A DNA stretch of 64,000 nt, from assembly GCF_016861975.1 (NCBI RefSeq), contig NZ_BOMB01000004.1, forward strand, positions 1 through 64,000, given 5' to 3'. The number at the start of each line of letters is the position of its first letter. Position 1 is the stretch's first letter. The position numbers and the translations under genes are program-made. Below are positions 7,614 through 59,043 of this stretch, piece after piece. The notes beneath the pieces are model-generated. The model worked only from the letters and a program-made list of their open reading frames with translations, ran no database searches and was not told where the DNA came from. This DNA is from Actinocatenispora rupis (lineage in GTDB: Bacteria > Actinomycetota > Actinomycetes > Mycobacteriales > Micromonosporaceae).

Positions 7614-7638
7614 GGAAACGGCTCAACGAAGCCGATCC
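7614..7638. repeat. 25-nt interrupted palindrome (element copy)
   Basis: Left arm GGAAACGGCT, loop CAACG, right arm AAGCCGATCC. Located 18 nt after the stop of the ArsR-type gene. Its left arm is the one amplified in the tandem array that follows at about 7755-7995. Confidence 0.6.
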
Positions 7639-7754
7639 GGCAGCCGCGCACCCTCCGCCGGGCACGTCACGGACCCCAGCGGACCGCCGAGGAACGCCGC
7701 AGGACCAGCGGGCCGCCGATGCGCGAGCGACCCGCCCCGGCCCACCGTTCCGCC

Positions 7755-7995
7755 CGAGCACCCCTCCCCGCGGAAACGGCTCAACAGAGCCCGGTCACCC
7801 CCGCCCCCCTGTGGCCCGAGCACTCCTCCCCCGCGGAAACGGCTCAACAGAAACCAGTCGCCCCGCCCGCGCTGTGGCCCGGGCGCTCCTCCCCGCGGAA
7901 GCGGCCCAGCAGAGCCCAGTCGCCCCGCCCGCCGTGTGGCCCGAGCGCTCCTCCCGCAGTATCGGCCGAGCGGAGCCCGGTCGCCCCTGGTGCGG
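7755..7995. repeat. Tandem array of about 60-63 bp units
   Basis: Four imperfect units begin near 7771, 7834, 7896 and 7956 (periods about 63, 62 and 60). Each has a hairpin-forming block GGAAACGGCT-CAACA-GAGCC and a C-rich spacer CTGTGGCCCGAGC-CTCCTCCC. The period is not a multiple of three and drifts, and no reading frame is conserved across units, so I read it as non-coding. The 653 nt between 7597 and 8250 contain only this array, the flanking palindromes at 7614 and 8095, and the MFS promoter region. Confidence 0.75.
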
Positions 7996-8094
7996 CGTGC
8001 TCGCGGAGCCGGGCCGATCGGCGTGTACCGCGTGATCCGCGGCCGGGCAGTCGCCCGCTGCCCCACATGCCGCGGTCGAGAGGCGAGCAGCCCG

Positions 8095-8119
8095 GGATCG
8101 GCTCAGCAGAGCGCGATCC
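8095..8119. repeat. 25-nt interrupted palindrome (element copy)
   Basis: Left arm GGATCGGCTC, loop AGCAG, right arm AGCGCGATCC, with GGATCG/CGATCC outer ends. Same 10-5-10 layout as the other copies in the window. Confidence 0.55.
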
Positions 8120-8250
8120 GGCCGTACCCGCCAGGGCTCGGACCGACAACCGACTTCGCGATGGGACACGGGCAGAGGGCGGGACGGACATTCCGCCGAT
8201 TGCACGCAGGGGGCTTGCGCGTTCCAGATGTGAAGGATTATTTTCGAAAT

Positions 8251-9591: not shown

Positions 9592-9693
9592 ACCGGCGCG
9601 ACACCGCCCGATGAGTTCCGCGCACCGGGCTCGTCGTACCTGGGACGGGACCTCGACGAACGGGACCTCGACGTACGGAAGGACACCGGCACC

Positions 9694-10098: not shown

Positions 10099-10130
10099 CC
10101 CCGGCACGGGATCGACGACCGGAAACCCGT

Positions 10131-10155
10131 GGATCCGTTACTGAGCAAGGGATCC
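10131..10155. repeat. 25-nt interrupted palindrome, best-preserved copy
   Basis: Left arm GGATCCGTTA, loop CTGAG, right arm CAAGGGATCC, located 33 nt after the stop of the NTF2-like gene. In the rest of the 394-nt gap 10099-10492 I see only the inverted repeat at 10383-10411 and the ribosome binding site of the next gene. Confidence 0.7.
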
Positions 10156-10382
10156 GTCACGGCATCGGCGGCGTGTGGAGGCCGGCGCCCCGGCACCCGA
10201 ACGAGCGCGGGTCGAGTTACGGTGCCCGGTGGTGTGCCGTCGCGCCACCCTGCGGTCACCCGGACGCGGCGGCGACTCGCCGGCGACGCCGGTTCTGCGG
10301 TACCGTCCCGCACTGCCACCCCGTCCCGGCACGCCACCCATCCGGAGCCGTACGCCGGGAAGGACCGGCGGCATGGCGGAAC

Positions 10383-10411
10383 CGTCCCGCAAGCGTGCCG
10401 ACAGCGGGACG
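10383..10411. promoter_or_regulatory. Inverted repeat in leader of the LPXTG protein gene
   Basis: CGTCCCGC (10383-10390) and GCGGGACG (10404-10411) form an 8-bp perfect inverted repeat with a 13-nt loop, 80 nt before the GTG start at 10493. A second ACCGTCCCGCA block lies near 10300. It could be an attenuator or an operator; the sequence alone cannot decide. Confidence 0.35.
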
Positions 10412-19602: not shown

Positions 19603-19974
19603 TCACGGGGTCGTCGGGGTGAAGGTCAGGACGCCGACAGCCCCGTCGACCCAGTCGACCCGCACGCCGAGGTTGTTGAGCTGACCGCGGGATCCGTTGC
19701 CGGACAACGTGTTCTCCACTTCCGTACCGGGTGCGGTACCCCGGACGGTGACGGTCGAGTGGGCGACGGTGACGTGCACCCGGTCGATCCCGTACGCGGG
19801 GGTCTCGACACCGAAGCCGGCGCTGCCGTCGACACGGATCTGGCACGACCCGTACCGGCAGGCGGTGGCGTCGGTGCCGTCGGTGGCGCGGGGCGGGTCG
19901 GTGGCGCCGCAGCCTGCGAGGACCGCGACGCAGCCCAGGAGTACCGCGGTCCGCCACCGCGTTCGATCCGTCAT
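19603..19974 (-). CDS. Small secreted lipoprotein
   Basis: 123 residues from ATG 19974; the frame extends to 20046 but that would displace the signal peptide. Signal sequence MTDRTRWRTAVLLGCVAVLAGC with the lipobox L-A-G-C at 19-22, so Cys22 is the predicted lipidated residue. The mature part has a Cys pair (ACRYGSCQIRV) and a beta-rich sequence with VHVTVAHSTVTVRGTAPG. The C-x-x-G-x-C and the strand pattern suggest a small sandwich domain, perhaps disulphide-linked. I do not recognise a named family. Divergent from the PadR gene. Confidence 0.75.
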   Translation of the reverse strand: MTDRTRWRTAVLLGCVAVLAGCGATDPPRATDGTDATACRYGSCQIRVDGSAGFGVETPAYGIDRVHVTVAHSTVTVRGTAPGTEVENTLSGNGSRGQLNNLGVRVDWVDGAVGVLTFTPTTP

Positions 19975-22622: not shown

Positions 22623-22647
22623 GGATCCCTTGTCCGGCAACGGAAAG
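22623..22647. repeat. 25-nt interrupted palindrome (element copy)
   Basis: Left arm GGATCCCTTG, loop TCCGG, right arm CAACGGAAAG. It ends 3 nt from the stop codon of the DedA gene (minus strand), so it would be in the 3' end of that transcript. Confidence 0.65.
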
Positions 22648-24064: not shown

Positions 24065-24806
24065 ATGCGCGGGGCGGGGACGAACGGGGCGCCGGACCGG
24101 ACCGGTCGGACGACCACGTCCGGGCGACGACCCGTCCCGTACGACACGGCGGGCCAGGGCACGGCCGTGGACGGCAGGCGTACCCGCGCGCGGCACACGT
24201 CGCGATCGTCTACGCCAGCGTCGGCGCCGGACCCGACCGCAACGCCGAACTCGCCCGGCGGATCGACGCCACCTGCCACAGCACCGACCGCCTCACGTGG
24301 TCAGCACGGCGGGGGTCACGCCGGCGGTGCCGGCCGCGTTCCCTCCCCCGCGTTCTGTCCGCCCGCGTTCGTGCCGCCCGCGTTCCTGCCGCCCGCGTTC
24401 CTGCCGCCCGCCGGCGCCGACGAGATCGCCGCGCGCCGCCGGTTCCGTTCGCAACCCGCACCTCCGTGCAGAACCCGCGCGGCCGCTCCACGCACGATCG
24501 CCCGACCCATCGCCACCCGCTGCGTTCGCCAGCAACGAATCCGCTCGCGCTCGTGGCCGCCACTCGCTCGGCCCGGGTCGACCGGACCGTACGGTCGCCG
24601 CCGCGCCCACCGTCCGTCCGGCCGCGCCCGCCCACACGTGGCCCCGGGCGCGCGGTTCGCCTGTCCGGTAACGGATCCGGCCATGGCGCCGTAGGGTCGA
24701 CACGTGACGGCGGCCGCACCCCGCGCGGGACGCCCCGGGTGCGTCGATGAGTTCCGGCGGCGCGGACCGTCTGTACCGGTGACGATCCGATCCTGGAGGA
24801 CATCCC
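24065..24806. other. 742-nt region without a convincing gene; 15-bp tandem repeats
   Basis: Open frames here are shadow-like. The only short coding-like stretch is VAIVYASVGAGPDRNAEL at about 24200-24255, and it ends in low-complexity sequence. Four 15-bp repeats of the form CCGCGTTCNTGCCGC occupy 24348-24407, and a 25-nt palindrome lies at 24654-24678. It may be a decayed gene, but there is too little to name it. The ribosome binding site of the next gene (GGAGGA, 24795-24800) is at the end. Confidence 0.4.
24654..24678. repeat. 25-nt interrupted palindrome (element copy)
   Basis: Left arm GGTTCGCCTG, loop TCCGG, right arm TAACGGATCC. Located in the gene-free stretch upstream of the hydrolase at 24807. 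Confidence 0.6.
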
Positions 24807-25684: not shown

Positions 25685-25709
25685 GGATCCCTTGCCCACC
25701 AACCAATCC
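25685..25709. repeat. 25-nt interrupted palindrome (element copy)
   Basis: Left arm GGATCCCTTG, loop CCCAC, right arm CAACCAATCC, starting 12 nt after the stop of the hydrolase gene. Confidence 0.65.
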
Positions 25710-26047
25710 CGCTCCGGTTCCCGCCGGCCCGGCTCACCGCGGTCTGTTGTCCTCCCGCCGATCCGGTACGCGCCGGCGCCGCTCGGCGTACCGCGCGACC
25801 GGCGACGAGCCGCGGGTGACGGGGTGCTGGCGCGAAGGTCCACTATGGAGAGTCGGTCGGGCGGGCCGGATCCGCCCGCGTCACGGACTTGCGAAACTCC
25901 ACGACTTCCCTTGCGTGGTAAGCATTTGCGAACGTCCCGACTCGCCGCGCGGGATGTCGTGGACACCGAGCGGCCGGCGACGTTCGGTGTCCCCATCCGG
26001 TCGGGACGCGAAGCCGTTCTGTGTTGTGGCGTCGGCCGCATGCCGTA

Positions 26048-26360
26048 CGCGACGCCGGCCCTCGAACACAGGTCGGCGTTCACAGTTGTTGCCGCGGAAC
26101 ATCTGGCGCCTCCGAGGTACGGCGGCGACCAGCGTCGTGGCCACACACCGGGCGCGACGCCGACCCTCGAACACAAGTCGGCGCTCGCGGTTGTAGCCGC
26201 AGAACAGCTGACCCTCCGAGGTACAGCGGCGTTCGGCGTCGTGGCCCCAAGCCGAGCGCGACGCCGACGCTCGAACGCCGGTCGCCGCTCGCGGTTGTGG
26301 CCGCAGAATGGCTGGCTCCTCCGAGTACAGCGGCCGTTCGGCGTCGTGGCCGGGATGCGG
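26048..26360. repeat. Three tandem ~105-bp non-coding repeat units
   Basis: Units begin at 26048, 26153 and 26257, each with CGCGACGCCG near the start, CTCGAAC, then GTTGTNGCCGCNGAA, CTCCGAGGTAC and a GTTCGGCGTCGTGGCC-like end. Periods are 105 and 104 bp, so the units fall in different reading frames and do not encode a repeat protein. Within a unit CGACGCCGA can pair with TCGGCGTCG about 70 nt later, and GCGG-TTGTAG-CCGC forms a small hairpin. The third copy fades after about 26340. The rest of the 946-nt gap 25674-26619 shows only the palindrome at 25685 and no supported gene. Confidence 0.75.
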
Positions 26361-26619: not shown

Positions 26620-26916
26620 ATGACCACGACCCACACCGAACACACCGGGCACGGCCACACGCACGGCGACGGCTGCGGGCACGTGGCCGTACCGCACGGG
26701 GATCACGTGGACTACGTGCACGACGGGCACCTGCACCGCGAGCACGGCGGGCACACCGACGAGTGCGAGCCGACAGGGCACGTCGAGCACACCGGGCACA
26801 CGCACACCCACGGCGACGGGTGCGGCCACGTCGCGGTGCCGCACGGCGACCACGTCGACTACGTGCACGACGGGCACCGGCACGCGCTGCACGAGGGCCA
26901 CGTCGACGACCACTGA
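26620..26916 (+). CDS. Histidine-rich metal-binding protein
   Basis: 98 residues from ATG 26620 with GAGGGGGC upstream; roughly a quarter of residues are His. It is an internal duplication. HTHGDGCGHVAVPHGDHVDYVHDGH occurs twice, at about residues 13-37 and 62-86, separated by an Asp/Glu/His linker with one further Cys (DECEPTG). The block binds divalent metals by its composition (Zn2+, Ni2+, Co2+ or Cu2+). Similar short proteins occur in actinomycetes, often beside zinc-uptake or Fur/Zur genes, but none is nearby here. Role inferred: metal storage or buffering. Confidence 0.85.
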   Translation: MTTTHTEHTGHGHTHGDGCGHVAVPHGDHVDYVHDGHLHREHGGHTDECEPTGHVEHTGHTHTHGDGCGHVAVPHGDHVDYVHDGHRHALHEGHVDDH

Positions 26917-26958: not shown

Positions 26959-27468
26959 ATGATCGGTGACCGGTGGGGCGTCCGGGACGACGAGGTACGG
27001 CGGCGTTATCCGTGCGACGACTTCGTTCCCGCACCCGTACTCCAGGCGTGGCGCGGTGTCGACGTCGCGGCCTCCGCCGCCGCGGTCTGGCCCTGGGTCG
27101 GACAGGTGCGCATCGCGCCGTACTCGTACGACTGGATCGACAACCTGGGCCGGCGCTCACCGCAGAACCTGGTCGGCCTGCCCGAACCGCGCGTCGGCGA
27201 ACCGTTCACCACCGCCGGTGGGCGCCAGCGCGGCCGGATCGTCGCGGTCGAGCCCGGACGCGAACTCACCGGCACCATCATGGGCGCCTTCCTGTCGTAC
27301 GTGCTCGTGCCCGACGGGCCCGACCGAACCCGCCTGCTGCTCAAGGTTTCCTTGCGTACCAACCGGTTGGTGGCGCCGGCGGCGTCCGTCGGCGACCTCG
27401 TCATGGCCCGCCGCCAACTGCTGAACCTCAAGCGCCTCGCCGAGGGCGGCGGATCCCCCACCCCCTGA
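26959..27468 (+). CDS. SRPBCC/polyketide-cyclase-like protein
   Basis: 169 residues from ATG 26959; GGTGGAGG at 26943-26950 is its ribosome binding site, and the GTG at 26944 lies within that site. The sequence APVLQAWRGVDVAASAAAVWPWVGQVRIAPYSYDWIDN, with strands VEPGRELTGTIMGAFLSYVLVPDGPDRTRLLLKVSL and a long C-terminal helix, fits the START/SRPBCC fold (hydrophobic ligand cavity). W-x-W-V-x-Q-x-R-x-x-x-Y-S-Y-D is a recurrent motif in this group. 42 nt after the His-rich gene, possibly co-transcribed. Confidence 0.8.
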   Translation: MIGDRWGVRDDEVRRRYPCDDFVPAPVLQAWRGVDVAASAAAVWPWVGQVRIAPYSYDWIDNLGRRSPQNLVGLPEPRVGEPFTTAGGRQRGRIVAVEPGRELTGTIMGAFLSYVLVPDGPDRTRLLLKVSLRTNRLVAPAASVGDLVMARRQLLNLKRLAEGGGSPTP

Positions 27469-27596: not shown

Positions 27597-27621
27597 GGAA
27601 GCCTTGCACACCAACCGGAAG
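27597..27621. repeat. 25-nt interrupted palindrome (element copy)
   Basis: Left arm GGAAGCCTTG, loop CACAC, right arm CAACCGGAAG. In the 765-nt gap between the SRPBCC gene and the hydrolase at 28234. Confidence 0.6.
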
Positions 27622-33216: not shown

Positions 33217-35253
33217 GTGACGGCATGGGCGATGGCGATCGACTTCGGAACCTCCAACACGGTGGCGGTGCTGCGCCGCGACGACGGCCCGGCCGACCCG
33301 CTGCTGTTCGACGGCACGCCGCTGCTGCCGTCGGCGGTGTTCGCCCAGGCCGACGGGAGCCTGCTGACCGGCCGGGACGCGCTGCACTCCCGCCGGGTCG
33401 CGCCGGAACGGTTCGAGCCGAACCCGAAGCTGCGCGTCGACGACGGCACCGTACTGCTCGGCGCTGAGGTGCCGGTCGGTGCGCTGTTCACCGCGGTCCT
33501 CCGCCGGGTGGCGGACGAGGCACGCCGGGTCGCCGACGGTCCGGTACGGCACGTGGTGCTGACCCATCCGGCCGGCTGGGGCCCGCGCCGCCGCGCCGTA
33601 CTGACCGGGGCCGCCGAGCAGGCCGGGCTCGGTTCACCCACGCTGCTGCCCGAACCGGTCGCCGCCGCGCGCCGCCTCACCGGTCCCACCGACACCCCCA
33701 CCGTCGTGTACGACTTCGGCGGCGGCACGTTCGACGCGTCCGTCGTCGCCGGCACCCGGGTCCTCGCCGCCGACGGGCTCCCCGACACCGGCGGGCTGGA
33801 CGTCGACGCCGCGCTCATCGCGTACCTGGAGGCGACGTACCGGCAGCGGGATCCGGCGGCGTGGGACCGGCTCCGCGACGGGACCACGGCGGCGGACCGG
33901 CGCGCCTGGTGGCAGTTCACCGAGGACGTCCGCGTCGCCAAGGAGATGCTGTCCCGCACCGCGCAGACCTTCGTGCACGTCCCGCTGATCGGGGTGGACG
34001 CGCCGATCGGCCGGGAACAGGTGGAGGCGATCGCCGCACCGCTCGTCGCCCGTACGGTCGCGGCGACGCGGGCGGTGCTCACCGCCGCCGGCCTCGCCGT
34101 ACCGCCGCCGGGGCCGCTGCTGCTGGTCGGCGGCGCGAGCCGGATGCCGTTGGTGGCACGGATGATCCACCGGCGGCTGCGGACGGCGCCGACCGCGGTC
34201 GAGCAGCCGGAACTCGTCGTCGCGCAGGGCGCCCTGCTCGCCGCCGTCGACACGCCCCCGGCGCCGTCCCCCGTGGACGTGCCGGCCACGGTCGGCGCCG
34301 GCGCTCCCCCGGCGGTCGACTCGCCGGTCCCGCTGCCCGACGTGGCAGCGCCGGCCGCCGATCCGCCACTCGCCCCCGGCCCCACCCCGCCGGTCGACGC
34401 GCCCACCGACCACAGCGGATCCCTTGGTACGCCAGCGATCCCGGCCGGTACGGCGACCTTCGGAGCGGACCCGCCGGCCGGTGGCACGCCGGAGATCGGC
34501 CCGGGCTCCGGTGGCCAGCCCGGCGTCGGGCCCGGCTTCGGGGGTGCCGCGCCGGGGACGGGCCCCGGGTTCGGCAACAGTCCAACCGGCGCCGGGCCGG
34601 GCTTCGGGGGTGCCGCGCCGCACACGGGTCCGGGCTCCGGGGACGGCGCTGGCCCGACGCCGGCCGGGGACCGGGCGACAGCGCGGGGACTGCGGACGGC
34701 GTGGATCCTGCTGGCCGTCTCGCCGGTCGCCAGCACCGTACTGTGGGTGCTGATCGGCGCCGGCGTGGGGCCGGGCACGGTACCGGTCCCCGTCGCCGTC
34801 ACGGTCGCCGCCGTACTCGCCCTGGCGGTCGCGGTGACGGTCGCGGTGGCCACCCGCTGGGCCGCCCGGTACGCCACGCTCCTCGCGGGGGTCGGCGTGT
34901 GGGCGCTGGCGTGGCTGACCGGGTTGGCGCCGGGGATGCCGGTCATCGCCCCGATCGGCGCGGGGATCGGCACCGTCCTGGTGGCCGGCGCGGCGACGCT
35001 GCTCGGCCGGTACCTGCCCGCGCGGCTCGCCGCGGGGGCCCCGTACCGGCCGGCGCTGGTGACCGCGGGCACGGCGCTGCTGACCGTGCTCGGCACGGTC
35101 GCCGTCACCGCCGCGGGACTGCTCCTCGCCTCGCTGCCGAACGAGATCCCCGGGATGACGCTCGGCGCCGCCATCTTCGTACCGACCGCCGCCGGGACCG
35201 CCGGCGCCCTCGCCATCCTGTACCGCGGCGCCCGCCCCACCACCCGCGCCTGA
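33217..35253 (+). CDS. Hsp70-like ATPase fused to membrane domain
   Basis: 678 residues from GTG 33217. The N-terminal ~360 residues form an actin/Hsp70 ATPase. Phosphate-1 loop AIDFGTSNTVAVL, THPAGWGPRRRAVL, phosphate-2 VVYDFGGGTFDASVV and adenosine motif LLLVGGASRMPLVARMI are all intact. The substrate-binding domain is replaced by a Pro/Gly linker (about 365-495, including repeats PGFGGAAP-GTG and PGFGNSPTGAG) and then five to six membrane helices. It cannot be a normal DnaK chaperone. Such membrane Hsp70-likes are common in actinomycetes but little studied. Its linker contains a copy of the 25-nt palindrome. TACGTT at 33206-33211 is a possible -10 for a leaderless mRNA. Confidence 0.88.
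   Translation: MTAWAMAIDFGTSNTVAVLRRDDGPADPLLFDGTPLLPSAVFAQADGSLLTGRDALHSRRVAPERFEPNPKLRVDDGTVLLGAEVPVGALFTAVLRRVADEARRVADGPVRHVVLTHPAGWGPRRRAVLTGAAEQAGLGSPTLLPEPVAAARRLTGPTDTPTVVYDFGGGTFDASVVAGTRVLAADGLPDTGGLDVDAALIAYLEATYRQRDPAAWDRLRDGTTAADRRAWWQFTEDVRVAKEMLSRTAQTFVHVPLIGVDAPIGREQVEAIAAPLVARTVAATRAVLTAAGLAVPPPGPLLLVGGASRMPLVARMIHRRLRTAPTAVEQPELVVAQGALLAAVDTPPAPSPVDVPATVGAGAPPAVDSPVPLPDVAAPAADPPLAPGPTPPVDAPTDHSGSLGTPAIPAGTATFGADPPAGGTPEIGPGSGGQPGVGPGFGGAAPGTGPGFGNSPTGAGPGFGGAAPHTGPGSGDGAGPTPAGDRATARGLRTAWILLAVSPVASTVLWVLIGAGVGPGTVPVPVAVTVAAVLALAVAVTVAVATRWAARYATLLAGVGVWALAWLTGLAPGMPVIAPIGAGIGTVLVAGAATLLGRYLPARLAAGAPYRPALVTAGTALLTVLGTVAVTAAGLLLASLPNEIPGMTLGAAIFVPTAAGTAGALAILYRGARPTTRA
34417..34441. 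repeat. 25-nt interrupted palindrome inside coding linker
   Basis: Left arm GGATCCCTTG, loop GTACG, right arm CCAGCGATCC, in frame within the low-complexity linker of the Hsp70-like protein (encoding SGSLGTPAIPA). Confidence 0.55.
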
Positions 35254-38909: not shown

Positions 38910-38934
38910 CGAACCCTTGCAGGACAACGGGTCC
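38910..38934. repeat. 25-nt interrupted palindrome (element copy)
   Basis: Left arm CGAACCCTTG, loop CAGGA, right arm CAACGGGTCC, in the gap between the small protein (stop 38712) and the DapA-like gene (stop 38973). Two more degenerate look-alikes lie at about 38721-38744 and 38753-38778 in the same gap. Otherwise the 260 nt show nothing. Confidence 0.6.
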
Positions 38935-39899: not shown

Positions 39900-40057
39900 G
39901 GTGTCCGTCCTCCCGGTACCGGTGTCGCTCGCGCGAGGCTACCGCCCGCGGCGCGGGGTGGACGTGCTGGCCGGGCCGGCGGCGATCCCGGAGGATGACG
40001 TGCACCCTCCGCCGGACCCGACCGGTCCACTGTGGACAGATCGGGTTCGGTGGAGCG

Positions 40058-41347: not shown

Positions 41348-42129
41348 CAGCGCCCACCGCCCAGCGTGGCCAGGCGCGCGGCGACGGTTCCGGCGTCCGG
41401 GCGTACGACGGTGTCGACGGGGCGGCCGTCGGCGAAGAACACGACGGCGTCCGCGCGGGCCGCGGCGACCGGGTCGTGCGTCACCATCACGATCGTCTGC
41501 CCGGTACGGAACACGGTGTCGCGCAACAGGTCCAGTACCTCGCGGGCGGCGCGGGTGTCGAGCGCGCCGGTCGGTTCGTCGGCGAAGACGACCGCCGGCC
41601 GGGTCAGGACGGCGCGGGCGATGGCGACGCGCTGCTGCTGGCCGCCGGACAGCTGGGCCGGGCGGTGGTCGAGCCGGTCACCGAGGCCGAGCCGGTCGAG
41701 CAGGCGTACCACGGCGGTCCGGTCGGGGCGGCGGCCGGCGAGCTCGAACGGCAGCACCACGTTCTGCACGACGGTCAGCGTCGGTACGAGGTTGAACGCC
41801 TGGAACACGAACCCCATCCGGTCGCGGCGGAACCGGGTCAGCGCCGTCTCGTCGAGCCCGGTCAGCTCCGTACCGTCGACGAGGACGGTGCCGGCGGTCG
41901 GCCGGTCGAGGCCGGCGGCGCAGTGCAGCAGGCTGCTCTTGCCGGAGCCGGACGGGCCCATCACGGCGGTGAAGCTGCCGCGCGGGAACGCGAGCGTGAC
42001 GGCGTCGAGGGCGGTCACGGTGGCGCCGGCCGTGCCGTACCGCCGGGTGACCTGGCGGAGTTCGACGGCCGGTCCGGACCGGTCGTGGATCGTGGTGGGA
42101 TGCGGCCCGGCGTGCGCTGTACGAGTCAT
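41347..42129 (-). CDS. ABC transporter ATP-binding protein (MacB/LolD type)
   Basis: 260 residues from ATG 42129 (MTRTAHAGPHPTT); upstream in-frame starts at 42147 and 42183 are less likely, since TACGGT seven bases before 42129 fits a leaderless transcript. Walker A GPSGSGKSSLL, FVFQAFNLVPTLTVVQNV (Q-loop), signature LSGGQQQRVAIARAV, Walker B VVFADEPTGALDTRAA, switch VTHDPVAAARAD. The A-G-L-D-x-P-T-x-G and F-x-F-Q-x-F-N-L motifs are typical of LolD/MacB ATPases. The start codon lies inside a 20-bp palindrome. Confidence 0.93.
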   Translation of the reverse strand: MTRTAHAGPHPTTIHDRSGPAVELRQVTRRYGTAGATVTALDAVTLAFPRGSFTAVMGPSGSGKSSLLHCAAGLDRPTAGTVLVDGTELTGLDETALTRFRRDRMGFVFQAFNLVPTLTVVQNVVLPFELAGRRPDRTAVVRLLDRLGLGDRLDHRPAQLSGGQQQRVAIARAVLTRPAVVFADEPTGALDTRAAREVLDLLRDTVFRTGQTIVMVTHDPVAAARADAVVFFADGRPVDTVVRPDAGTVAARLATLGGGR

Positions 42130-45956: not shown

Positions 45957-46859
45957 GTGACCCTGCACGAGGACGAGGTACCCGCCGGCCCGGCGACCGT
46001 ACGGGCGCTGCTGGCCGCGCAGTGCCCGCAGTGGGCCGACCTGCCGCTCGCCGCGGCCGGCGCCGGCACCGACAACACCATGTACCGGCTCGGCACCGAC
46101 CTGCTCGTCCGGCTGCCGCGGACCGCCGGCACGGCGCGCTCGCTGCGTACCGAACAGGAGTGGCTGCCGCGGCTCGCTCCCCTGCTGCCGCACCGGATCC
46201 CCGCGCCGGTGCACCTCGGCACGCCCGCCGCCGGGTACCCGCTGCCGTGGTCGGTGCACCGCTGGCTGGACGGCGCCGAGGTCGGCCCCGACAGCGTCAC
46301 CGACTGGGCCGCGCTCGGCACCGACCTCGCGACGTTCGTCCGCGACCTGCACGCCACCGACCTGATGGGCGCCACCCGCGCCGGCGACCTCAGCTGGTAC
46401 CGCGGCGGCGACCTGCGGTCCTGCGACGACTGGATCACCGGCTGCCTGCGCGACTGCCGCGCCGTCGTCGGCGCCGACCTCGACCTCGACACCCTCACCC
46501 GGTACTGGCGCGCCGGGCTCGCGCAACCCGAGCCGGCCGGGCCGTACGGGTGGCTGCACGGTGACCTGAGACCCACCAACCTGCTGGCGCGCAACGGAAA
46601 GCTGTACGCCGTCATCGACTTCGGCTGCCTGTCCGTCGGCCTCCCCGACGCCGAGCACGCGCCCGTCTGGGACCTGCCCGCCGCGGCGCGCCACGCGTAC
46701 CGGGACGCGCTGGACGTCCCCGACCCGACCTGGATCCGCGCCCGCGCCTGGGCCGTCGCCGTCGCCGCCAGCGGCATCGCGTACTACCGGGGCACGTTCC
46801 CGGCGTTCGTCGCCGAGTGCCGCGCCCGCCTCGGCCGCATCCTCGGCGACCCGTTCTGA
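45957..46859 (+). CDS. Aminoglycoside phosphotransferase (APH) family kinase
   Basis: 300 residues from GTG 45957. N-lobe: GAGTDNTMYRLGTDLLVRLPRTAGTARSLRTEQEWL, with the ATP-binding strand and the R-L-P lysine-equivalent region. C-lobe: GWLHGDLRPTNLLARNGKLYAVIDFGCLSVGLPDAE, the H-G-D-L-x-P-x-N catalytic loop and the I-D-F-G metal site. Both are intact. The APH family phosphorylates aminoglycosides, macrolides, choline or other small molecules. Nothing specifies the substrate, so a resistance function should not be assumed. Confidence 0.88.
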   Translation: MTLHEDEVPAGPATVRALLAAQCPQWADLPLAAAGAGTDNTMYRLGTDLLVRLPRTAGTARSLRTEQEWLPRLAPLLPHRIPAPVHLGTPAAGYPLPWSVHRWLDGAEVGPDSVTDWAALGTDLATFVRDLHATDLMGATRAGDLSWYRGGDLRSCDDWITGCLRDCRAVVGADLDLDTLTRYWRAGLAQPEPAGPYGWLHGDLRPTNLLARNGKLYAVIDFGCLSVGLPDAEHAPVWDLPAAARHAYRDALDVPDPTWIRARAWAVAVAASGIAYYRGTFPAFVAECRARLGRILGDPF

Positions 46860-46881
46860 CGCATTGTCCCGCAACGGATCC
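46857..46881. repeat. 25-nt interrupted palindrome overlapping a stop codon
   Basis: Left arm TGACGCATTG (its TGA is the stop of the APH-family gene), loop TCCCG, right arm CAACGGATCC. Confidence 0.65.
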
Positions 46882-49027: not shown

Positions 49028-49052
49028 GATCCCGTTGCACCGCAACGACTCT
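49028..49052. repeat. 25-nt interrupted palindrome (element copy)
   Basis: Left arm GATCCCGTTG, loop CACCG, right arm CAACGACTCT, starting 14 nt after the TetR stop at 49014. Confidence 0.6.
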
Positions 49053-49717: not shown

Positions 49718-49742
49718 GGATCGCCTGTGCGGCAACGGGTCA
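49718..49742. repeat. 25-nt interrupted palindrome overlapping a stop codon
   Basis: Left arm GGATCGCCTG, loop TGCGG, right arm CAACGGGTCA; the last three bases are the reverse complement of the TGA stop of the YCII gene. It lies 36 nt after the exonuclease stop. Confidence 0.65.
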
Positions 49743-50353: not shown

Positions 50354-50378
50354 GGTCGCCTTGCGGTGCAAGGGTCTC
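50354..50378. repeat. 25-nt interrupted palindrome overlapping a stop codon
   Basis: Left arm GGTCGCCTTG, loop CGGTG, right arm CAAGGGTCTC, overlapping the stop of the nitronate monooxygenase gene (stop bases 50377-50379 on the minus strand). Confidence 0.65.
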
Positions 50379-51360
50379 AGACGGGCCGGCCGAGGATGGC
50401 GGCCGCGTCGGCGGCGAGCGTACGGACGATCGTCGCGGCGGGCGCGATCTCGTGGACGAGCCCGGCGGCCTCGCCGGCGTACAGGGCCATCGCGTCGACG
50501 TCGCCGTCCATGCCGGGCATCGGCGGCTGGTCCTCGTACCGCAGGCAACGGCGGCCGTCCGGGGTGGTGGCGAGGACGTCGCCCTCCCCCGGCCGGTGCG
50601 GCGCCGCGGGAGCACCGGCCGCCTCCCACGACGCGAGGGTTTCGTTGCGCAGCACGCGATGCGGCGCATCCGGCCACCCCACCTCGAAGCACCCCGTGTA
50701 CGCGGTGTCGTCGACGGACGCGTCGAGTACGCGGTGCCGGTAGGCGTCGTGGGTGGCGGCCTCGGTGGCGGTGAGGAACCGGGTGCCGATCCAGGCACCC
50801 TGCGCGCCGAGGGCCAGGACGGCGGCGAGGCCCCGCCCGTCGGCGACCCCGCCCGCCGCGAGCACGGGCGTCGGCCCGACCGCGTCCACGACGGCCGGTA
50901 CGAGCGCCATCGTGGACGTGCGCCCGCGTACGTGCCCGCCGGCCTCGAAGCCCTGCGCGACGATCACGTCCACCCCGACCTCGGCCGCCCGTACCGCCTC
51001 CGCCACCGACCCGACCGTGTGTACGTGCCGGGCGCCGCCGCGGCGGATCGTGTCGTGCACGCCCGCCGGGTCACCCCAGAACGTCGACACCACCGGGACG
51101 CGTTCGCGCAGGCAGGCGTCGAGTACGTCGTGGATCGGGAAGTCCAGCACCAGGTTGGCGCCGAACGCCCGCCCGGTACGGGAACGCACGGCGCGGATCC
51201 GTTCGGTGGCACCGTCGGCGCCGCACCAGGTCAGGGCGAGGGTGCCGAGGCCGCCCGCGCCGGACACGGCGGCCACCAGGTCCGGCGTGACCGCCGAACC
51301 GATCGGCGCCTGGACGATCGGCACGCTGATGTCCAGCAGTGCGCGCAGCGGACGGTGCAC
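50377..51360 (-). CDS. Nitronate monooxygenase/2-nitropropane dioxygenase-like flavoprotein
   Basis: 327 residues from GTG 51360, after GGGGAGGG; the frame extends to 51432 but over a regulatory palindrome. ISVPIVQAPIGSAVTPDLVAAVSGAGGLGTL is the FMN-binding barrel start. VIVAQGFEAGGHVRGRTSTMALVPAVVDAV is the Q-G-x-E-A-G-G-H motif with the catalytic His. VLAAGGVADGRGLAAVLALGAQGAWIGTRFL is the phosphate-binding G-G-x-x-x-G. All are hallmarks of NMO family enzymes that oxidise alkyl nitronates. Divergent from an HxlR regulator. Confidence 0.92.
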   Translation of the reverse strand: MHRPLRALLDISVPIVQAPIGSAVTPDLVAAVSGAGGLGTLALTWCGADGATERIRAVRSRTGRAFGANLVLDFPIHDVLDACLRERVPVVSTFWGDPAGVHDTIRRGGARHVHTVGSVAEAVRAAEVGVDVIVAQGFEAGGHVRGRTSTMALVPAVVDAVGPTPVLAAGGVADGRGLAAVLALGAQGAWIGTRFLTATEAATHDAYRHRVLDASVDDTAYTGCFEVGWPDAPHRVLRNETLASWEAAGAPAAPHRPGEGDVLATTPDGRRCLRYEDQPPMPGMDGDVDAMALYAGEAAGLVHEIAPAATIVRTLAADAAAILGRPV

Positions 51361-52670: not shown

Positions 52671-52696
52671 GGGAAGCGTGACGGGGCAAGGGAAAC
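52671..52696. repeat. Interrupted palindrome (26-nt variant)
   Basis: Left arm GGGAAGCGTG, 6-nt loop, right arm CAAGGGAAAC, in the 48-nt gap between convergent stops at 52651 and 52700. Confidence 0.5.
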
Positions 52697-52699
52697 AGG

Positions 52700-55027
52700 T
52701 CACCGTGCCGGGTGTACCTCGGGGAAGCGGTGCGGGTCGAGAGCGGGCGGCGGTCCGCCGCGCAGGACGTGCCGGGCGAAGGCGGTGACGTACGCGTCGG
52801 TGACGACCAGGCCGCGGTCGCCGTCGATCGGGCCGAGCTGGGCGAGCCCGTGCAGCGCGGACGGTACGTAGTAGGCGCCGTAGTCGGTGAAGTTGAAGTG
52901 TTCGGCACCGGCGATCTCGTACCGGAAGGCGGGGCCGGTACTCGCGGCGCGCAGGCTTCCGCTGGCGGCGGCGATCTCCCGGTGCACGGCGTCGGTGGGG
53001 TGGCAGGCGCCGGCGATGCAGTCGCCGGGAGTACCGAGGAGCAGCATCGGCGCGGCGAGCCCGGTGCGCACGACCGGGCCGTACGGGGTGCCGTCGAGGT
53101 CGGCGGCGCCGACGCAGCGCCGGTCCTCGTGGCATGCCTGGAGCGCGGCGGCCCCGCCGAACGAGTGCCCGACGTACGCGACGCGGCGGGCGTCGACGTG
53201 CCCGGCGAGCCGCCCGCCGACGCGTCGGATCCGGTCGGCCGCGAACCGCGCGTCGGCCGCCCACACCGCGAGAAGCCGCCCGTCGTTCAGCCGTTCCGGA
53301 TCGGCCGGGTTGCCGGCCGCGGTCGGCGCCACCGGGTGTCCATTGAGGACGGTCCGGTTCGCGCTGTACGTCGGCGTCACGCCCGCGACCACGATCCCGT
53401 GGCTGGCCAGATCCTCGGCCAGCGCGCTGAACTGCGGCGCGGCCAGCCCCAGCCCGGGTTCCAGCACCACCAGGGGAAAGCGGCCGGCGGCGACCGGCGC
53501 GCCCGCCACCGAGTGCGTACGCAGGACGTCCAGCCGGTTCGCGAGGAGGCCGAAGCTCAGCATCCCCGCCCAGTGCCCCGGCGCGTACGGCGCGGGCCGC
53601 CCACCGGCCGCCGCCGGGTACCAGACCCAGACGGACAGTTCGCGGTGCCGGCCGGGGTGCGGCGCGAGCGGGTCGACGCGACCGGTGTCCGTCCAGTCGA
53701 AAGCCACCCGCCCCACCCGGTACGGCCCGGTCGGTGCCGGCAGGCTCCGCGGCAGCACGTGTCGTACGCCGAGGTAGCCGACGGTGCCGACGACGGCGAG
53801 CACGATCGCCAGCGGTACCGAGAGGAGGGCCTTCGCCGGCCAACGACGGCGCCGCCGCACACCCAGCAGCAGCACGGTGAGCAGCCCGGCGAGTACCGCG
53901 ACCACCGCGACCAGCCGGCCGAGCCGCCCCCACGACGTGACCGGGTAGTCCAGCAGCGCACCCACCCCGGCCCGGAACGCCAGCGCCACCGGCACGCTCG
54001 CCACCATCGCGTACCCGGCGCAGGCCAGCGCGGACCGCCGGGCCGGCACCGGGCGGTCGTCGCGCCGCCGCAACACCCCCAGGTACGCGTTGATCGGCAC
54101 CACCGCGGCCAGCAGGCACGCCGCGCCGATCGCGGTCCGCGCCACCGCCGCCGCGACCGGCTGTGCGCCCAGCCCGTCGCCCCGCGCCTCCGCGACCGTC
54201 ATCCCCGCCGCCACCGCCAGGCTGCCGAGTACCGCGGTGGTGAGGCGGTGCCGGCGCAGTCCGTGCCGGCCGCCCACCACCACCCGCCGCACCCACGCCA
54301 GCGCACGCGCCAGCGCCCGCCCCGGCGTACCGCAGCGCGCGGTCACCCGCCCCACCCCGTCGAGTACGTCCTCGGCCCAGTCCGGCGCGGGGTTCCCGTG
54401 CTGCGGCAGGGATCCCGCCCGCTCCGCGACGGCGGCGCCACGACCGCGGGAGCCGGCAGGAACGGTCGCGACCGCGCGGCCGGGCACGGTACCGGATCCG
54501 TCCGGGTCGGCGTCGCGGTCCGGCGCGATGCCCTGGTTTCCTTGCTGCACCGAGGATCCCGTCCGGTCCCCGGCGGTGGCGCGGTGCAGGACGAGGGCGG
54601 TGGCCCCGGCGGTGGCGCGGTGCAGGACGAGGCCGGTGGCCCCGGCGGCGAGGGTGAGCACGGCGAGCGCCGCGACCAGCAGCCGGCCGGTACCGCCCCA
54701 CAGGTCGGCGTGCGTGCGCAGGGCGACGGCGATCCAGTCGGCGACGGCGGTCGCGGCGACGAGGGCGAGCACCGCCCGACCGCCGCGGAGCAGGTCCCGG
54801 GGCGCGGGCCGCCCGGCGACGAGCCGTACCGCCAGGGCGAGGCCGAGCGCGGGGACGAGCAGTTGGGTGAACGAGACGACCACGTCGTACGGGTCGTCCT
54901 GCCAGGGGCTGTGTGCCCGCAGCGCCCGGATCTGGGTGGTACCGAACGCGAACGCGGTGAACAGCACCGCGCAGCCGACCGCCCACCACGCCGCCCGGCG
55001 TACGACCGGGGGTTGTTGCTCGCCCAT
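52700..55027 (-). CDS. Membrane-anchored alpha/beta hydrolase (PAF-acetylhydrolase-like)
   Basis: 775 residues from ATG 55027, with GAGGAG. N-terminal half: two blocks of three to four helices (about 12-125 and 245-375), separated by a low-complexity segment (about 128-215). C-terminal half: hydrolase with LVVLEPGLGLAAPQFSALAEDLASHGIVV, the nucleophile elbow VAYVGHSFGGAAAL (G-H-S-F-G), LDGTPYG, and the catalytic His in IAGAEHFNFTDY, in the PAF-AH/dienelactone-hydrolase style. The linker includes a perfect 36-bp tandem duplication unit (LVLHRATAGAT) and two copies of the 25-nt palindrome. Strong promoter with PadR-type operator repeats directly upstream. Confidence 0.88.
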   Translation of the reverse strand: MGEQQPPVVRRAAWWAVGCAVLFTAFAFGTTQIRALRAHSPWQDDPYDVVVSFTQLLVPALGLALAVRLVAGRPAPRDLLRGGRAVLALVAATAVADWIAVALRTHADLWGGTGRLLVAALAVLTLAAGATGLVLHRATAGATALVLHRATAGDRTGSSVQQGNQGIAPDRDADPDGSGTVPGRAVATVPAGSRGRGAAVAERAGSLPQHGNPAPDWAEDVLDGVGRVTARCGTPGRALARALAWVRRVVVGGRHGLRRHRLTTAVLGSLAVAAGMTVAEARGDGLGAQPVAAAVARTAIGAACLLAAVVPINAYLGVLRRRDDRPVPARRSALACAGYAMVASVPVALAFRAGVGALLDYPVTSWGRLGRLVAVVAVLAGLLTVLLLGVRRRRRWPAKALLSVPLAIVLAVVGTVGYLGVRHVLPRSLPAPTGPYRVGRVAFDWTDTGRVDPLAPHPGRHRELSVWVWYPAAAGGRPAPYAPGHWAGMLSFGLLANRLDVLRTHSVAGAPVAAGRFPLVVLEPGLGLAAPQFSALAEDLASHGIVVAGVTPTYSANRTVLNGHPVAPTAAGNPADPERLNDGRLLAVWAADARFAADRIRRVGGRLAGHVDARRVAYVGHSFGGAAALQACHEDRRCVGAADLDGTPYGPVVRTGLAAPMLLLGTPGDCIAGACHPTDAVHREIAAASGSLRAASTGPAFRYEIAGAEHFNFTDYGAYYVPSALHGLAQLGPIDGDRGLVVTDAYVTAFARHVLRGGPPPALDPHRFPEVHPAR
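54391..54415. repeat. 25-nt interrupted palindrome inside coding linker
   Basis: Plus-strand reading: left arm GGTTCCCGTG, loop CTGCG, right arm GCAGGGATCC. Encodes GSLPQHGNP in the hydrolase linker. Confidence 0.55.
54535..54559. repeat. 25-nt interrupted palindrome inside coding linker
   Basis: Plus-strand reading: left arm GGTTTCCTTG, loop CTGCA, right arm CCGAGGATCC. Encodes GSSVQQGNQ in the hydrolase linker, 144 bp from the copy at 54391. Confidence 0.55.
54568..54639. repeat. 36-bp tandem duplication in coding sequence
   Basis: Two near-identical 36-bp units (54568-54603, 54604-54639) containing GGTGGCGCGGTGCAGGACGA. They add a 12-residue repeat (LVLHRATAGAT) to the hydrolase linker without shifting frame. 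Confidence 0.7.
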
Positions 55028-56268: not shown

Positions 56269-56285
56269 ACAGCCGGTGTCGGTGG

Positions 56286-56978
56286 TCAGGTGGTGGCGGT
56301 GAGCCGGACGCAGCACTCGCCGGCCTGCGGGGCGAGCCGGGCCGTCACCGACCGGGCGTCGAGCCCGTCGAGCAGCCCGTCGAGGAACGCGTGGTTGATG
56401 GCGCACACCGTGTCGGGCGCCCGCTCCGCCAGCGGATGGAACGGACAGTTCCGCAGCCGTACGCACCGGGGCGAGTCGCGCGCCGGCGCGAACCCGTGCG
56501 ACTCCAGCAGACCGGTGGCGATGGTGAGGGCACGCTCCGCACCCAGCCGGCCCGGTCGGGTACGCCGGCGGTGGTCGGCGCCGATCTCGTGCCCGCGTTC
56601 CCGCGCCGTACGCACGGCGGCGTCGCGCGCACCCTCGTCCGCGCCGGCCGCGAGTACGGCGTCGAGCAGGATCCCGGCGAGCAGGTCGTACTGCCGCGGC
56701 GGGAGGCTGACGCGGATGTCGCCGCCGGTCGGTTCGTACACCTTCGGGGCGCGGCCGACGCGACGCAGGCCGGTGGCGCGCTGGAAGGTGGCGTGCAGGA
56801 CACCGGCCGCGACGAGCTTGTCGAGGTGGAACGCGGCCAGTTTCCGGGAGATCCCGACGGCCGCGGCCGCCTCGTCCCGGGTGACCGGTCGACGCGCGTC
56901 GCGGATGAACTCGTACATGCCGCGCCGCAGCTCGTCGTCGAGCGCGGCGATGGCACGGATGGCTGGATCGGCCGCCAC
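56286..56978 (-). CDS. SufR-like winged-helix regulator with cysteine cluster
   Basis: 230 residues. Winged helix: ALDDELRRGMYEFIRDARRPVTRDEAAAAVGISRKLAAFHLDKLVAAGVL, with R-K-L-A-A-F-H-L-D-K-L typical of SufR/Rv1460-like regulators. The C-terminal half contains CVRLRNCPFHPLAERAPDTVCAINHAFLDGLLDGL and later ECCVRL. The C-x5-C-P-F-H ... V-C-x3-H pattern matches the iron-sulfur ligand region of SufR. Here it controls no suf operon, but is divergent from a DUF2231 gene. Probably an Fe-S or redox sensor (inference). Confidence 0.85.
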   Translation of the reverse strand: MAADPAIRAIAALDDELRRGMYEFIRDARRPVTRDEAAAAVGISRKLAAFHLDKLVAAGVLHATFQRATGLRRVGRAPKVYEPTGGDIRVSLPPRQYDLLAGILLDAVLAAGADEGARDAAVRTARERGHEIGADHRRRTRPGRLGAERALTIATGLLESHGFAPARDSPRCVRLRNCPFHPLAERAPDTVCAINHAFLDGLLDGLDARSVTARLAPQAGECCVRLTATT

Positions 56979-57087
56979 GCCTCGACGCTATCACCAACAA
57001 GTGTGGTCGTCGGGCGCCGATCCCCGGTCGGGCTTGACGCGGTGGCGCAATAAGACCAACAATCATTGGCGTATTAGGGGGTGCGTC

Positions 57088-57648
57088 ATGAGCAGTGACG
57101 CGGGGCAGGCGAAGCGACCGGTCAGCGCCGCACTCGCCGGACCGTACGGGCATCCGTACCATCCGATCCTGGTGGGCGTGCCGATCGGCGCGTGGATCGC
57201 CAGCCTGGTCTTCGACGTGGCGTCCCGGCTGGTCGGATCGCCCACGTTCCTGACCCGGGGCGCGGTCTGGCTGATCGCGGTCGGCGTGGTCGGCGCGCTC
57301 GTCGCCGCGATGGCCGGGCTGCTGGACCTGCTGGCCATTCCGACCGGCACGCCGGCGTTCCGGACCGGGCTGGTGCACATGACACTCAACCTGGCGGTCA
57401 CCGTCGCGTTCGTCGCCAACTTCTTCTGGCGGTACGCGAGCTACGGACACGCCGGTGCCGTCGGGGCCGGCCAGCTCGCGCTGACCGCCGTCAGCCTCGC
57501 CACCCTCGGCGTCTCCGGGTACCTCGGCGGCAAGCTCGCGTTCCGCTACGGGGTGCGCGTCGCCGACGAGGCCACGCAGGCGGAGGGGTTCCGGCACACC
57601 GCACCGCACCGCCGCGCCACGTCCGGCCGCGCGCATCCCGCGCACTGA
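57088..57648 (+). CDS. DUF2231 membrane protein
   Basis: 186 residues from ATG 57088. ALAGPYGHPYHPILVGVPIGAWIASLVFDVASRL is the DUF2231 hallmark (G-H-P-x-H-P-x-L-V-x-x-P-I-G). Four helices follow, with GLLDLLAIPTGTPAFRTGLVHMTLNLAVTVAFVANFFWRY holding a second conserved His. Such histidines suggest haem or metal binding, although function is not established. The next gene, encoding an NADH-dependent ferredoxin-reductase-like protein, is 119 nt downstream on the same strand; together with the Fe-S-type regulator this looks like a redox module. Confidence 0.9.
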   Translation: MSSDAGQAKRPVSAALAGPYGHPYHPILVGVPIGAWIASLVFDVASRLVGSPTFLTRGAVWLIAVGVVGALVAAMAGLLDLLAIPTGTPAFRTGLVHMTLNLAVTVAFVANFFWRYASYGHAGAVGAGQLALTAVSLATLGVSGYLGGKLAFRYGVRVADEATQAEGFRHTAPHRRATSGRAHPAH

Positions 57649-57767
57649 CACGCGCCCCGCACCGACCACAGTGGACGGTGCGGCGGGCGTGCCGCTGCCC
57701 GCGTACCCCGGCGGCGGCACCCGCCACGCGGTCATCCGCCCATCGAACCGAAGGAGCGTCCGTACCC

Positions 57768-58973
57768 ATGACGGCAGTACGCAGGGTCGTGATCGTCGGC
57801 GCCGGGCTGGCCGGGGCCAAGGCCGCCGAAACGTTGCGGGACAAGGGATTCGACGGGTCGGTGACGCTGGTCGGCGACGAGCCGCACCGCCCGTACGAGC
57901 GGCCGCCGCTGTCGAAGGACTACCTCGCCGGCAAGGTCGACCGGGACACCGTCTTCGTGCACGACACCTCCTGGTACGCGGAGCACGACGTGACGCTGCG
58001 CCTCGGCGTCGCGGCCACCGCGGTCGACCGCGCCGCGCACCGCGTCGAGCTGGCCGACGGGGACGCGCTCGACTACGACCGGCTGCTGCTCACCACCGGA
58101 TCCAGTCCGCGTACGCTGCCGGGCGCCGCGGGCGTGCACTACCTGAGGCGGGTCGAGGACACCGAGCGCATCCGGCGGATCCTCGACACCGGCGGGCATC
58201 TCGCCGTCGTCGGCGCCGGCTGGATCGGGCTGGAGGTGGCCGCCGCGGCCCGGCAGGCCGGGATGCGGGTCACCGTACTGGAGAGCCTGGACCTGCCGCT
58301 GCTCCGCGTACTCGGACCGGAGGTCGCGCGGGTCTTCGCCGACCTGCACACCGACCACGGCGTCGACCTGCGCCTCGGCGTCTCCCCCACCGACGTCGCC
58401 GCCGACGGGGTACGACTCGCCGACGGTACGCGGATCGACGCGGACGCGGTGGTCGTCGGCATCGGCGCGGTGCCGAACACCGGGCTGGCCGAGCGGGCCG
58501 GGCTCCGGGTCGACAACGGCGTGGTCACCGACGCCGCCCTGCGTACGAGCGACCCGGACGTCCTCGCCGCCGGCGACGTCGCCAACGCGTTCCATCCGTT
58601 GCTGCGACGGCACATCCGCGTCGAGCACTGGGCGAACGCGCTCAACCAGCCCGGTACGGCCGCGGCCACCATCCTCGGCGCCGACGCCGGCTACGACGAG
58701 CTGCCGTACTTCTACACCGACCAGTACGACCTGGGCATGGAGTACCTGGGTCACGTCGGGCCGGACGGGTACGACCGGGTGGTGGTGCGGGGTGACCTCG
58801 CCGGGCGCGAGTTCGTCGCGTTCTGGCTGCGCGACGGCCGGGTACTCGCCGGCATGAACGTCAACGTCTGGGACGTCACCGAGCCGGTCAAGGCGCTGAT
58901 CCGGTCCGGCCGGCCGATCGACGCCGGCGTACTCGCCGACACCGGCACCGACCTGGCCGCGCTGGTGTTCTGA
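57768..58973 (+). CDS. Ferredoxin reductase-type FAD/NAD(P)H oxidoreductase
   Basis: 401 residues from ATG 57768, with AAGGAG at 57751-57756. VVIVGAGLAGAKAAETLRDKGFDG (FAD, G-x-G-x-x-G at 11-16), HRPYERPPLSKDYLAG (family hallmark), LAVVGAGWIGLEVAAAARQAGMRVTVLE (NAD) and DVLAAGDVANAFHPLL (FAD O2' site). HWANALNQPGTAA-type and WFYTDQYD-like motifs (here YFYTDQYDLGMEYLG) confirm the BphA4/rubredoxin-reductase class. Known role: electrons from NAD(P)H to a ferredoxin or P450. No ferredoxin gene lies adjacent. Confidence 0.93.
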   Translation: MTAVRRVVIVGAGLAGAKAAETLRDKGFDGSVTLVGDEPHRPYERPPLSKDYLAGKVDRDTVFVHDTSWYAEHDVTLRLGVAATAVDRAAHRVELADGDALDYDRLLLTTGSSPRTLPGAAGVHYLRRVEDTERIRRILDTGGHLAVVGAGWIGLEVAAAARQAGMRVTVLESLDLPLLRVLGPEVARVFADLHTDHGVDLRLGVSPTDVAADGVRLADGTRIDADAVVVGIGAVPNTGLAERAGLRVDNGVVTDAALRTSDPDVLAAGDVANAFHPLLRRHIRVEHWANALNQPGTAAATILGADAGYDELPYFYTDQYDLGMEYLGHVGPDGYDRVVVRGDLAGREFVAFWLRDGRVLAGMNVNVWDVTEPVKALIRSGRPIDAGVLADTGTDLAALVF

Positions 58974-59018
58974 GGACCCGGCCCGGCCGGTACACCCCGC
59001 ACGCCGGGCCGGGACCGC

Positions 59019-59043
59019 AGGGCGCCTGCGCCGCAACGGTTTC
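59019..59043. repeat. 25-nt interrupted palindrome (element copy)
   Basis: Left arm AGGGCGCCTG, loop CGCCG, right arm CAACGGTTTC, 45 nt after the reductase stop. The remaining gap to 59268 holds a CCACAGTGGAC motif at 59203 and the next gene's promoter. Confidence 0.55.

Follow-up and report, generated by a model that had tools for sequence, protein, structure and literature searches.

The window, a 64,000-nt stretch of contig NZ_BOMB01000004.1 of Actinocatenispora rupis (source genome G000; 7.83 Mb in 81 contigs), carries copies of a 25-bp interrupted palindrome, the dyad GRWWCCSTTG-N5-CAASGGWWYC, which is present in the genome in a number on the order of a thousand or more and is densest right after stop codons. 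The dyad is considered, with moderate confidence, to be a double-stranded DNA site bound by the dimer of a nucleoid-associated or global-regulator-type protein; the sites would be weakly selected, and at gene ends would serve as a boundary. Two independent 10-bp half-sites (GRWWCCSTTG), inverted at 5-bp spacing, would be taken up by one dimer of a putative DNA-binding protein working at chromosome scale. Weak selection would let sites build up through point substitutions at any place that tolerates them, via codon choice in coding sequence and with more freedom in intergenic DNA; the strongest sites in this genus lie right after stop codons and between convergent genes, where the bound dimer would most plausibly be a boundary or roadblock to transcription.

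Form and abundance of the dyad

The consensus is taken from a profile of 114 TTGN5CAA sites from the window and from 400 kb of contig C1 and 400 kb of C10 (864 kb in all); outside the 25 bp the conservation is at most 0.16 bits at any position shown. An iterated, symmetric dyad matrix was trained on the same 864 kb and used with score cut-offs of 11, 13, 14, 16, 17 and 18; the held-out set of 744.5 kb comprises 40 slices, which are the starts of 39 other contigs and 20 kb of C4 (one slice, C37, 878 bases, is all N), and contigs C43 to C81 are covered by whole-genome pattern counts only. Genes were predicted with our own codon-usage script, not a standard caller, giving 1,441 genes in 1.61 Mb. 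The whole-genome pattern is STTGN5CAASGGWWCC and its control is the same pattern with gap 8, in the same codon phase; matches are counted on both strands, and perfect palindromes therefore count on both.

TTGN5CAA is found 12 times in the window vs 1.07 expected, and CTTGN5CAACGGATCC, allowing up to 3 mismatches, 29 times vs 3.28 expected; 0 of 100 shuffles reach either count. In the whole genome CTTGN5CAACGGATCC occurs 39 times, the reversed control pattern 0 times. The gap is fixed: in the 864 kb TTG-N-CAA is seen 114 times at gap 5, the 15 other gaps in the 0-15 range have between 3 and 27 cases apiece, and the whole-genome pattern gives 218 matches at gap 5 vs 3 at gap 8. The matrix returns 158 sites at score 16 or above in the 864 kb, vs 1 in Markov sequence and 0 with the reversed matrix; at 13 or above these numbers are 265, 11 and 17, and the held-out set yields 213 sites vs 9 with the reversed matrix. 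The held-out density of 28.6 per 100 kb (~290 per Mb) corresponds to ~2,200 sites per genome at score 13, of which about one-fifth is coding background as judged by synonymous and codon-order shuffles; at score 18 the 213 sites in 1.61 Mb correspond to ~1,000. An earlier note on this DNA, which had proposed a genome-wide family of fixed length and layout and had asked of it a count above shuffled sequence and a positional bias, is borne out on these points.

The dyad also emerges from searches unbiased towards it. With gaps from 0 to 18 in a genome sample, CTTG at gap 5 ranks second among 4-mer dyads and TTGC at gap 3, which is the same dyad, ranks fourth; among 5-mer dyads its extensions rank third to sixth, the leader being GTCCACNGTGGAC. 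The spacer CGTAC, with its complement, is the second commonest within the dyad (31 of 478 sites). GTAC itself occurs 930 times per 100 kb in G000, 536 and 507 times in two congeners, and 188 times in Crossiella. Local density is uneven, with a variance/mean of 2.55 over 78 bins of 20 kb; at score 16, 400 kb of C10 holds 105 sites and 400 kb of C1 holds 37.

The unit is the fixed-gap dyad and not a lone half-site. There are 70 GGATCCSTTG half-sites in 1.6 Mb; a partner (score of at least 0) stands at gap 5 for 48 of them, and at gaps 2, 8, 11 and 14 for 1, 3, 5 and 3; these partner counts rule out a lone half-site of the uptake type. Inverted DNA-uptake sequences at gene ends number ~2,000 copies and are both genic and at gene ends, which is like the dyad in number and positions; unlike them, the dyad has halves that are not stand-alone units. 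A sequence of the DNA-uptake type, multiplied through biased uptake with recombination, would fit the ~2,000 copies, their place in and after genes and their spread by substitution; however, the unit is not a directional single half, and no single directional word is enriched alone, making this the least probable of the explanations weighed here. Uptake sequences (PMC1939737) are a comparison system with copies that spread by substitution and lie in genes and behind them.

Gene ends, arms and genic copies

Predicted genes contain 323 of the 478 copies at score 13; per base, intergenic DNA is richer, with densities per 100 kb over 1.61 Mb of 23.9 in genes, and 28.2, 68.1 and 114.7 in divergent, tandem and convergent intergenic regions. 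The enrichment near stop codons claimed in the earlier note is sharp: for site centres 10-20 bp after a stop the density is 366 per 100 kb (36 stop-site pairs in 9.8 kb, in which a site between convergent genes may count for two stops), followed by 173 at 20-30 bp, 46 at 30-40 bp and values of 75 to 123 at larger distances. With the cut-off raised to score 18 the 10-20 bp bin has 285 per 100 kb vs 9.4 in genes. Among gene pairs with gaps of at most 400 bp, those with a site are 29 of 209 for the convergent class, 44 of 817 for the tandem and 7 of 197 for the divergent class, and the reversed matrix gives 0, 2 and 0. In some convergent pairs the dyad extends over one stop codon or over both.

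Upstream of genes the density is 0 at 0-10 bp before starts and 36 to 66 per 100 kb at 10-400 bp. The latter values exceed the 23.9 in genes and, together with 28 sites of score 17 or above that have a start at most 250 bp downstream and no stop within 45 bp (1.6 Mb), would suit an ordinary transcription factor whose operator family includes pervasive weak members; the dyad geometry, typical of dimeric helix-turn-helix proteins, fits as well. Such an operator family is nevertheless distinctly unlikely, as divergent pairs are the poorest intergenic class, the last 10 bp before starts hold no site centre, and the genes downstream of the 28 sites are without a common theme by eye.

The arms do not covary, so that the compensatory changes for which the earlier note had proposed a test are absent. 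Complementarity per position pair, relative to column frequencies, gives z from -1.5 to 0.8 in 478 sites (score of at least 13), and the highest z, 1.4 at ±6, belongs to a subset, the 185 genic sites from the training 864 kb. The ±6 pairs of the 478 sites are GC 159, GG 115, CC 103 and CG 86; 245 are complementary and 218 are G-G or C-C, matching independence. Gene-end copies (53 at score 11 or above; ±6 pairs CC 18, CG 13, GG 11, GC 9) likewise show no covariation. With right arms swapped among 60 gene-end copies the mean folding energy is -5.95 kcal/mol vs -5.48 for the native arms, and 54 of the 60 swaps fold as low or lower; the corresponding values are 55 of 60 for 319 genic copies and 21 of 60 for 99 other intergenic copies. 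This suggests that each arm is read on its own, as the two subunits of a dimer would do; TTG/CAA would presumably be contacted in the major groove, and the A/T at ±9/10, which has no fixed orientation, in the minor groove, in the manner of winged-helix dimers.

An RNA hairpin, acting as a terminator or 3'-end stabiliser, would explain the peak right after stops. Perfect palindromes point the same way: ten stretches, picked for being perfect or clustered, were inspected, and of six perfect palindromes seen in G000 four are centred 17 to 33 bp after a stop, the remaining two lie 62 bp after a stop and 74 bp before a start, and none is genic. The hairpin, which the earlier note had offered as one option, is nonetheless very unlikely and is rejected on the pair tables and arm swaps; furthermore, a T run (at least 4 T in the next 8 nt) follows 0 of 60 gene-end copies, which thus do not show the stable stem and U run of intrinsic terminators, 323 of 478 copies are genic, and Rfam at gathering thresholds gives no match in the window. 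A protein-binding site, another of the options in that note, is supported by the independent arms, the fixed spacing and the genic excess.

The genic excess is measured against shuffles of 778 genes (761 kb). At score 16 there are 100 sites vs 15 and 8 in synonymous shuffles and 4 and 6 in codon-order shuffles; at score 18, 71 vs 3 and 2, and 0 and 0. At score 13 the 181 sites compare with 63 and 52, and 20 and 16, about one-third of genic sites being at the level that shuffles yield. The codon phases of genic sites at score 14 are occupied 96, 37 and 10 times.

The origin of these copies is seen in two congeners, G002 and G003, whose polA-like protein is at least 85% identical to that of G000. 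For 37 genic C1 sites (score 14) the alignments to G002 and G003 are gap-free in 26 and 27, gapped in 3 and 3, and unaligned in 8 and 7, and random genic windows align to them in much the same way. In 230,445 three-way gap-free windows G000 has 25 sites at score 14, G002 has 17 and G003 has 16; of the 25 in G000, 10 score below 8 in both congeners and 11 score 11 or above in both, and private sites in the other direction are 1 of 17 for G002 and 1 of 16 for G003. As these alignments are gap-free at the background rate and contain private sites, genic sites come and go by substitution.

A further alternative is a mobile palindrome family, like the repetitive extragenic palindromes (REPs), which the earlier note had also suggested, or like miniature inverted-repeat transposable elements (MITEs). 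REPs with RAYT transposases are 20-40 bp palindromes after genes and between convergent genes, a placement shared by the dyad, and some dyad copies stand in tandem arrays; intergenic C1 sites are mostly unaligned or gapped relative to G002 and G003, so insertion is possible there (both congeners clearly have a homologue of site 331052 on C1). For the genic copies mobile insertion is ruled out by the ortholog alignments. Unlike REPs, the dyad is mostly genic rather than extragenic, lacks arm pairing and covariation, has nothing much conserved beyond its 25 bp, and is found in a genome with no such transposase: Y1 transposase (PF01797) matches number 0 in G000, 0 in G003 and 1 each in G001 and G002. 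REP tags at both ends of 286 sites (GTAG 5, CGTC 28) are below the controls (GATG 10, GTCG 49). A REP/MITE-like family is therefore highly improbable. The location of REPs behind genes and between convergent genes is given in PMC3733652.

Occurrence in relatives and comparison with known systems

Among 150 genomes, the counts of the whole-genome pattern at gap 5 and gap 8 are 218/3 in G000, 37/3 in G001, 21/3 in G002 and 13/1 in G003. Higher counts at gap 5 than at gap 8 are also seen in G074 (37/4), G049 (32/5), G075 (25/2), G051 (21/4), G078 (21/3), G056 (17/1), G086 (16/4), G092 (16/0), G094 (13/1), G105 (12/1), G037 (11/2) and G110 (11/1); gap-5 matches are absent in 51 of the 150. Across 30 named genomes Crossiella has 70/5, Kibdelosporangium 27/8, Saccharothrix deserti 12/2 and Virgisporangium 12/1, with none at gap 5 in 12 of the 30; the matches of G040 and G105 are the same as those of the Actinorhabdospora and Virgisporangium records, which places the family as Micromonosporaceae. 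In a class sample of 394 genomes, which includes only two other family members, the largest count besides G000 is 12; the counts of same-order genomes there (at most 12 matches each) are without the gap-8 control. The dyad thus has a scattered distribution over other Micromonosporaceae and Crossiella, and is mostly genic where examined: in 400 kb of Crossiella genic sites number 39 vs 7 in shuffled sequence at score 16 and 100 vs 34 at score 13, and intergenic sites number 1 and 6, three of the 6 lying 8-30 bp after a stop. Sampled loci of G001 (20 of 37) are genic in 15 cases and intergenic in 5, each of the 5 being 11-22 bp after a stop; those of G075 (20 of 25) comprise 19 genic and 1 intergenic. 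Of four G001 sites with a spanning G000 alignment two are kept and two are not. One kept site agrees in 19 of 20 arm letters and differs in 4 of 5 spacer letters, as a single case; the other lies in a glycosyltransferase gene, for which every NCBIfam match shown is below its cut-off, and since it falls at a peptide that we take to be conserved in PimA-type enzymes it is no proof of conservation at the DNA level.

Several observations weigh against a selected site of a chromosomal protein with a boundary role. No binder was found, and by eye the 28 upstream sites point to one through neither autoregulation nor a regulon with a shared theme. Substitutions relative to G002 and G003 affect 81 of 625 positions in sites and 508 of 4,471 in flanks; as sites are not slower than flanks, selection is unshown by conservation. 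Substitutions run 66 towards the motif and 15 away from it, a biased count as sites were picked for a high G000 score, and the synonymous share (46 of 81 in sites vs 248 of 508 in flanks) differs weakly. G002 and G003 (400 kb each) are near the shuffled baseline at score 16 (7 vs 5, and 3 vs 3), with 4 vs 0.5 and 2 vs 0.5 at score 18, which indicates that the driver of the sites is not equally active across the genus; TTG-N-CAA shows no peak in them (13 and 12 at gap 5; 13 to 17 and 12 to 16 at other same-phase gaps), although their exact-pattern counts are nonetheless above gap 8. A gene-end role is not general, the sites of Crossiella and G075 being nearly all genic, and the genic copies are not explained by a boundary role. 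Lastly, 3 of the 5 intergenic copies taken from G001 are perfect palindromes with differing arms; the sample is small, and hairpins would give the same.

The lack of conservation relative to flanks is also what an iterated sequence without cellular function at individual sites would show, driven by mutation, repair or methylation as may be the case for the highly iterated palindromes (HIPs) of cyanobacteria. HIP1 and its alternates are like the dyad in being palindromic, enriched genome-wide and of lineage-specific abundance, and the dyad, over-represented genome-wide at ~2,000 copies, with genic copies that arose by substitution, and patchy between lineages, fits this description; it is considered a real but rather unlikely alternative. 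HIPs as listed in PMC4390886 are uninterrupted words, 5-8 bp long, with 1000-2000 occurrences per Mb; in contrast, the dyad is degenerate, split and 25 bp in length, which is long for a methyltransferase word, and at ~290 per Mb it is no contiguous short word of that abundance. The sharp gene-end preference likewise argues against a HIP-like drive.

As in nucleoid-protein sites, the motif is independent of RNA pairing and has many genic and intergenic copies. Gbn, an actinobacterial nucleoid protein, has thousands of chromosomal sites with the word GATCWT (PMC9239103), and resembles the proposed reading of the dyad in that an actinobacterial chromosome offers many sites to a single DNA-binding protein; the word read by Gbn is short, however, while the A/T degeneracy of the dyad at ±9/10 makes GATC optional, and there is no sign of Gbn reading the dyad. 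None of the HIPs, Gbn sites, REPs or uptake sequences fits the dyad in full. A literature search for TTGNNNNNCAA and variants, with subscription papers and preprints largely outside it, yielded analogues or unrelated papers and, among those listed, no description of the dyad.

More tentatively than the DNA-site reading itself, it is proposed that a sequence-specific chromosomal protein, as a dimer on gene-end dyads, may form a transcription boundary, and that pressure for its sites may have rewritten synonymous codons in several actinobacterial lineages independently. U-tract terminators are thought scarce in high-GC actinobacterial genomes; if true, the proposal would provide these genomes with a protein-based punctuation, and synonymous positions in them may carry chromosome-level signals. 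A search for the binder is directly testable with the dyad, its spacer control and the contrast between genomes rich in it (G000, G001, G049, G074, G075 and Crossiella) and poor in it (G002, G003 and most of the genomes sampled from groups g4 and g29).

Copies in the window and a second dyad

The window holds 16 sites at score 16 or above. The earlier note had listed 15 positions, at which the 10-5-10 layout is present and between 2 and 8 of the 10 arm positions are complementary; 11 of them score at least 14.9 and stand, 59019 is borderline, and 7614 (1.9), 8095 (1.2) and 22558 (7.6) are non-members. The list was also incomplete, missing eight copies at score 16 or above (marked below), of which up to three may be the coding copies that it had mentioned without coordinates.

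10131..10155: dyad GGATCCGTTA-CTGAG-CAAGGGATCC, score 26.3; intergenic, centre 44 bp after stop
19690..19714: dyad GGATCCGTTG-CCGGA-CAACGTGTTC, score 26.1; in predicted gene; absent from earlier list
22623..22647: dyad GGATCCCTTG-TCCGG-CAACGGAAAG, score 23.0; centre 16 bp after stop
24654..24678: dyad, score 17.5; divergent intergenic, 141 bp upstream of start
25685..25709: dyad GGATCCCTTG-CCCAC-CAACCAATCC, score 24.0; centre 23 bp after stop
27345..27369: dyad, score 19.7; in predicted gene; absent from earlier list
27597..27621: weak dyad, score 15.2
34417..34441: dyad, score 18.7; in predicted gene; absent from earlier list
38910..38934: dyad CGAACCCTTG-CAGGA-CAACGGGTCC, score 22.8; convergent genes on either side
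41509..41533: dyad, score 20.5; in predicted gene; absent from earlier list
46857..46881: dyad, score 16.7; begins at TGA stop codon
47364..47388: dyad, score 16.4; begins at TGA stop codon; absent from earlier list
49028..49052: dyad GATCCCGTTG-CACCG-CAACGACTCT, score 20.9; centre 25 bp after stop
49718..49742: dyad, score 15.7; overlaps stop of minus-strand gene
50354..50378: dyad, score 18.5; overlaps stop of minus-strand gene
50638..50662: dyad, score 19.4; in predicted gene; absent from earlier list
52672..52696: weak dyad, score 14.9; convergent genes on either side; the 26-nt variant listed at 52671 scores best as this 25-mer
54391..54415: dyad, score 16.5; in predicted gene; absent from earlier list
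57827..57851: dyad CGAAACGTTG-CGGGA-CAAGGGATTC, score 25.5; in predicted gene; absent from earlier list
59019..59043: borderline copy, score 12.8

A tandem array of a 62-bp unit, unrelated to the dyad, spans 7752-7987 with 3.8 copies, and 7614 and 8095 look by eye like outlying copies of its unit; further tandem arrays, with 104-bp and 147-bp units, are found at 26034-26351 and 26637-26909. Elsewhere in G000 a cluster of dyads lies behind a polA-like gene (C1:269858-270314), the clusters at C1:34639-34827 and C10:172349-172430 are arrays with periods of ~55 bp and 19 bp, and at L281:1467-2112 (contig C31) two genes are separated by five tandem units of 125 bp, every unit with a single dyad.

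A second and sharper dyad, TCCACNGTGGA, is present at 40026 in the window and at 109 places in 1.6 Mb of G000; it mostly has G before and C behind, giving GTCCACNGTGGAC. A literature search for GTCCACNGTGGAC and variants found no relevant description, and 400 kb of G002 and of G003 have no comparable alternate split dyad besides it. It presumably resembles two overlapping actinobacterial DnaA boxes. GTCCACNGTGGAC is the top 5-mer dyad in all four samples (G000, G002, G003 and Crossiella), at ~67 per Mb in both G000 and Crossiella, 33 in G002 and 20 in G003.

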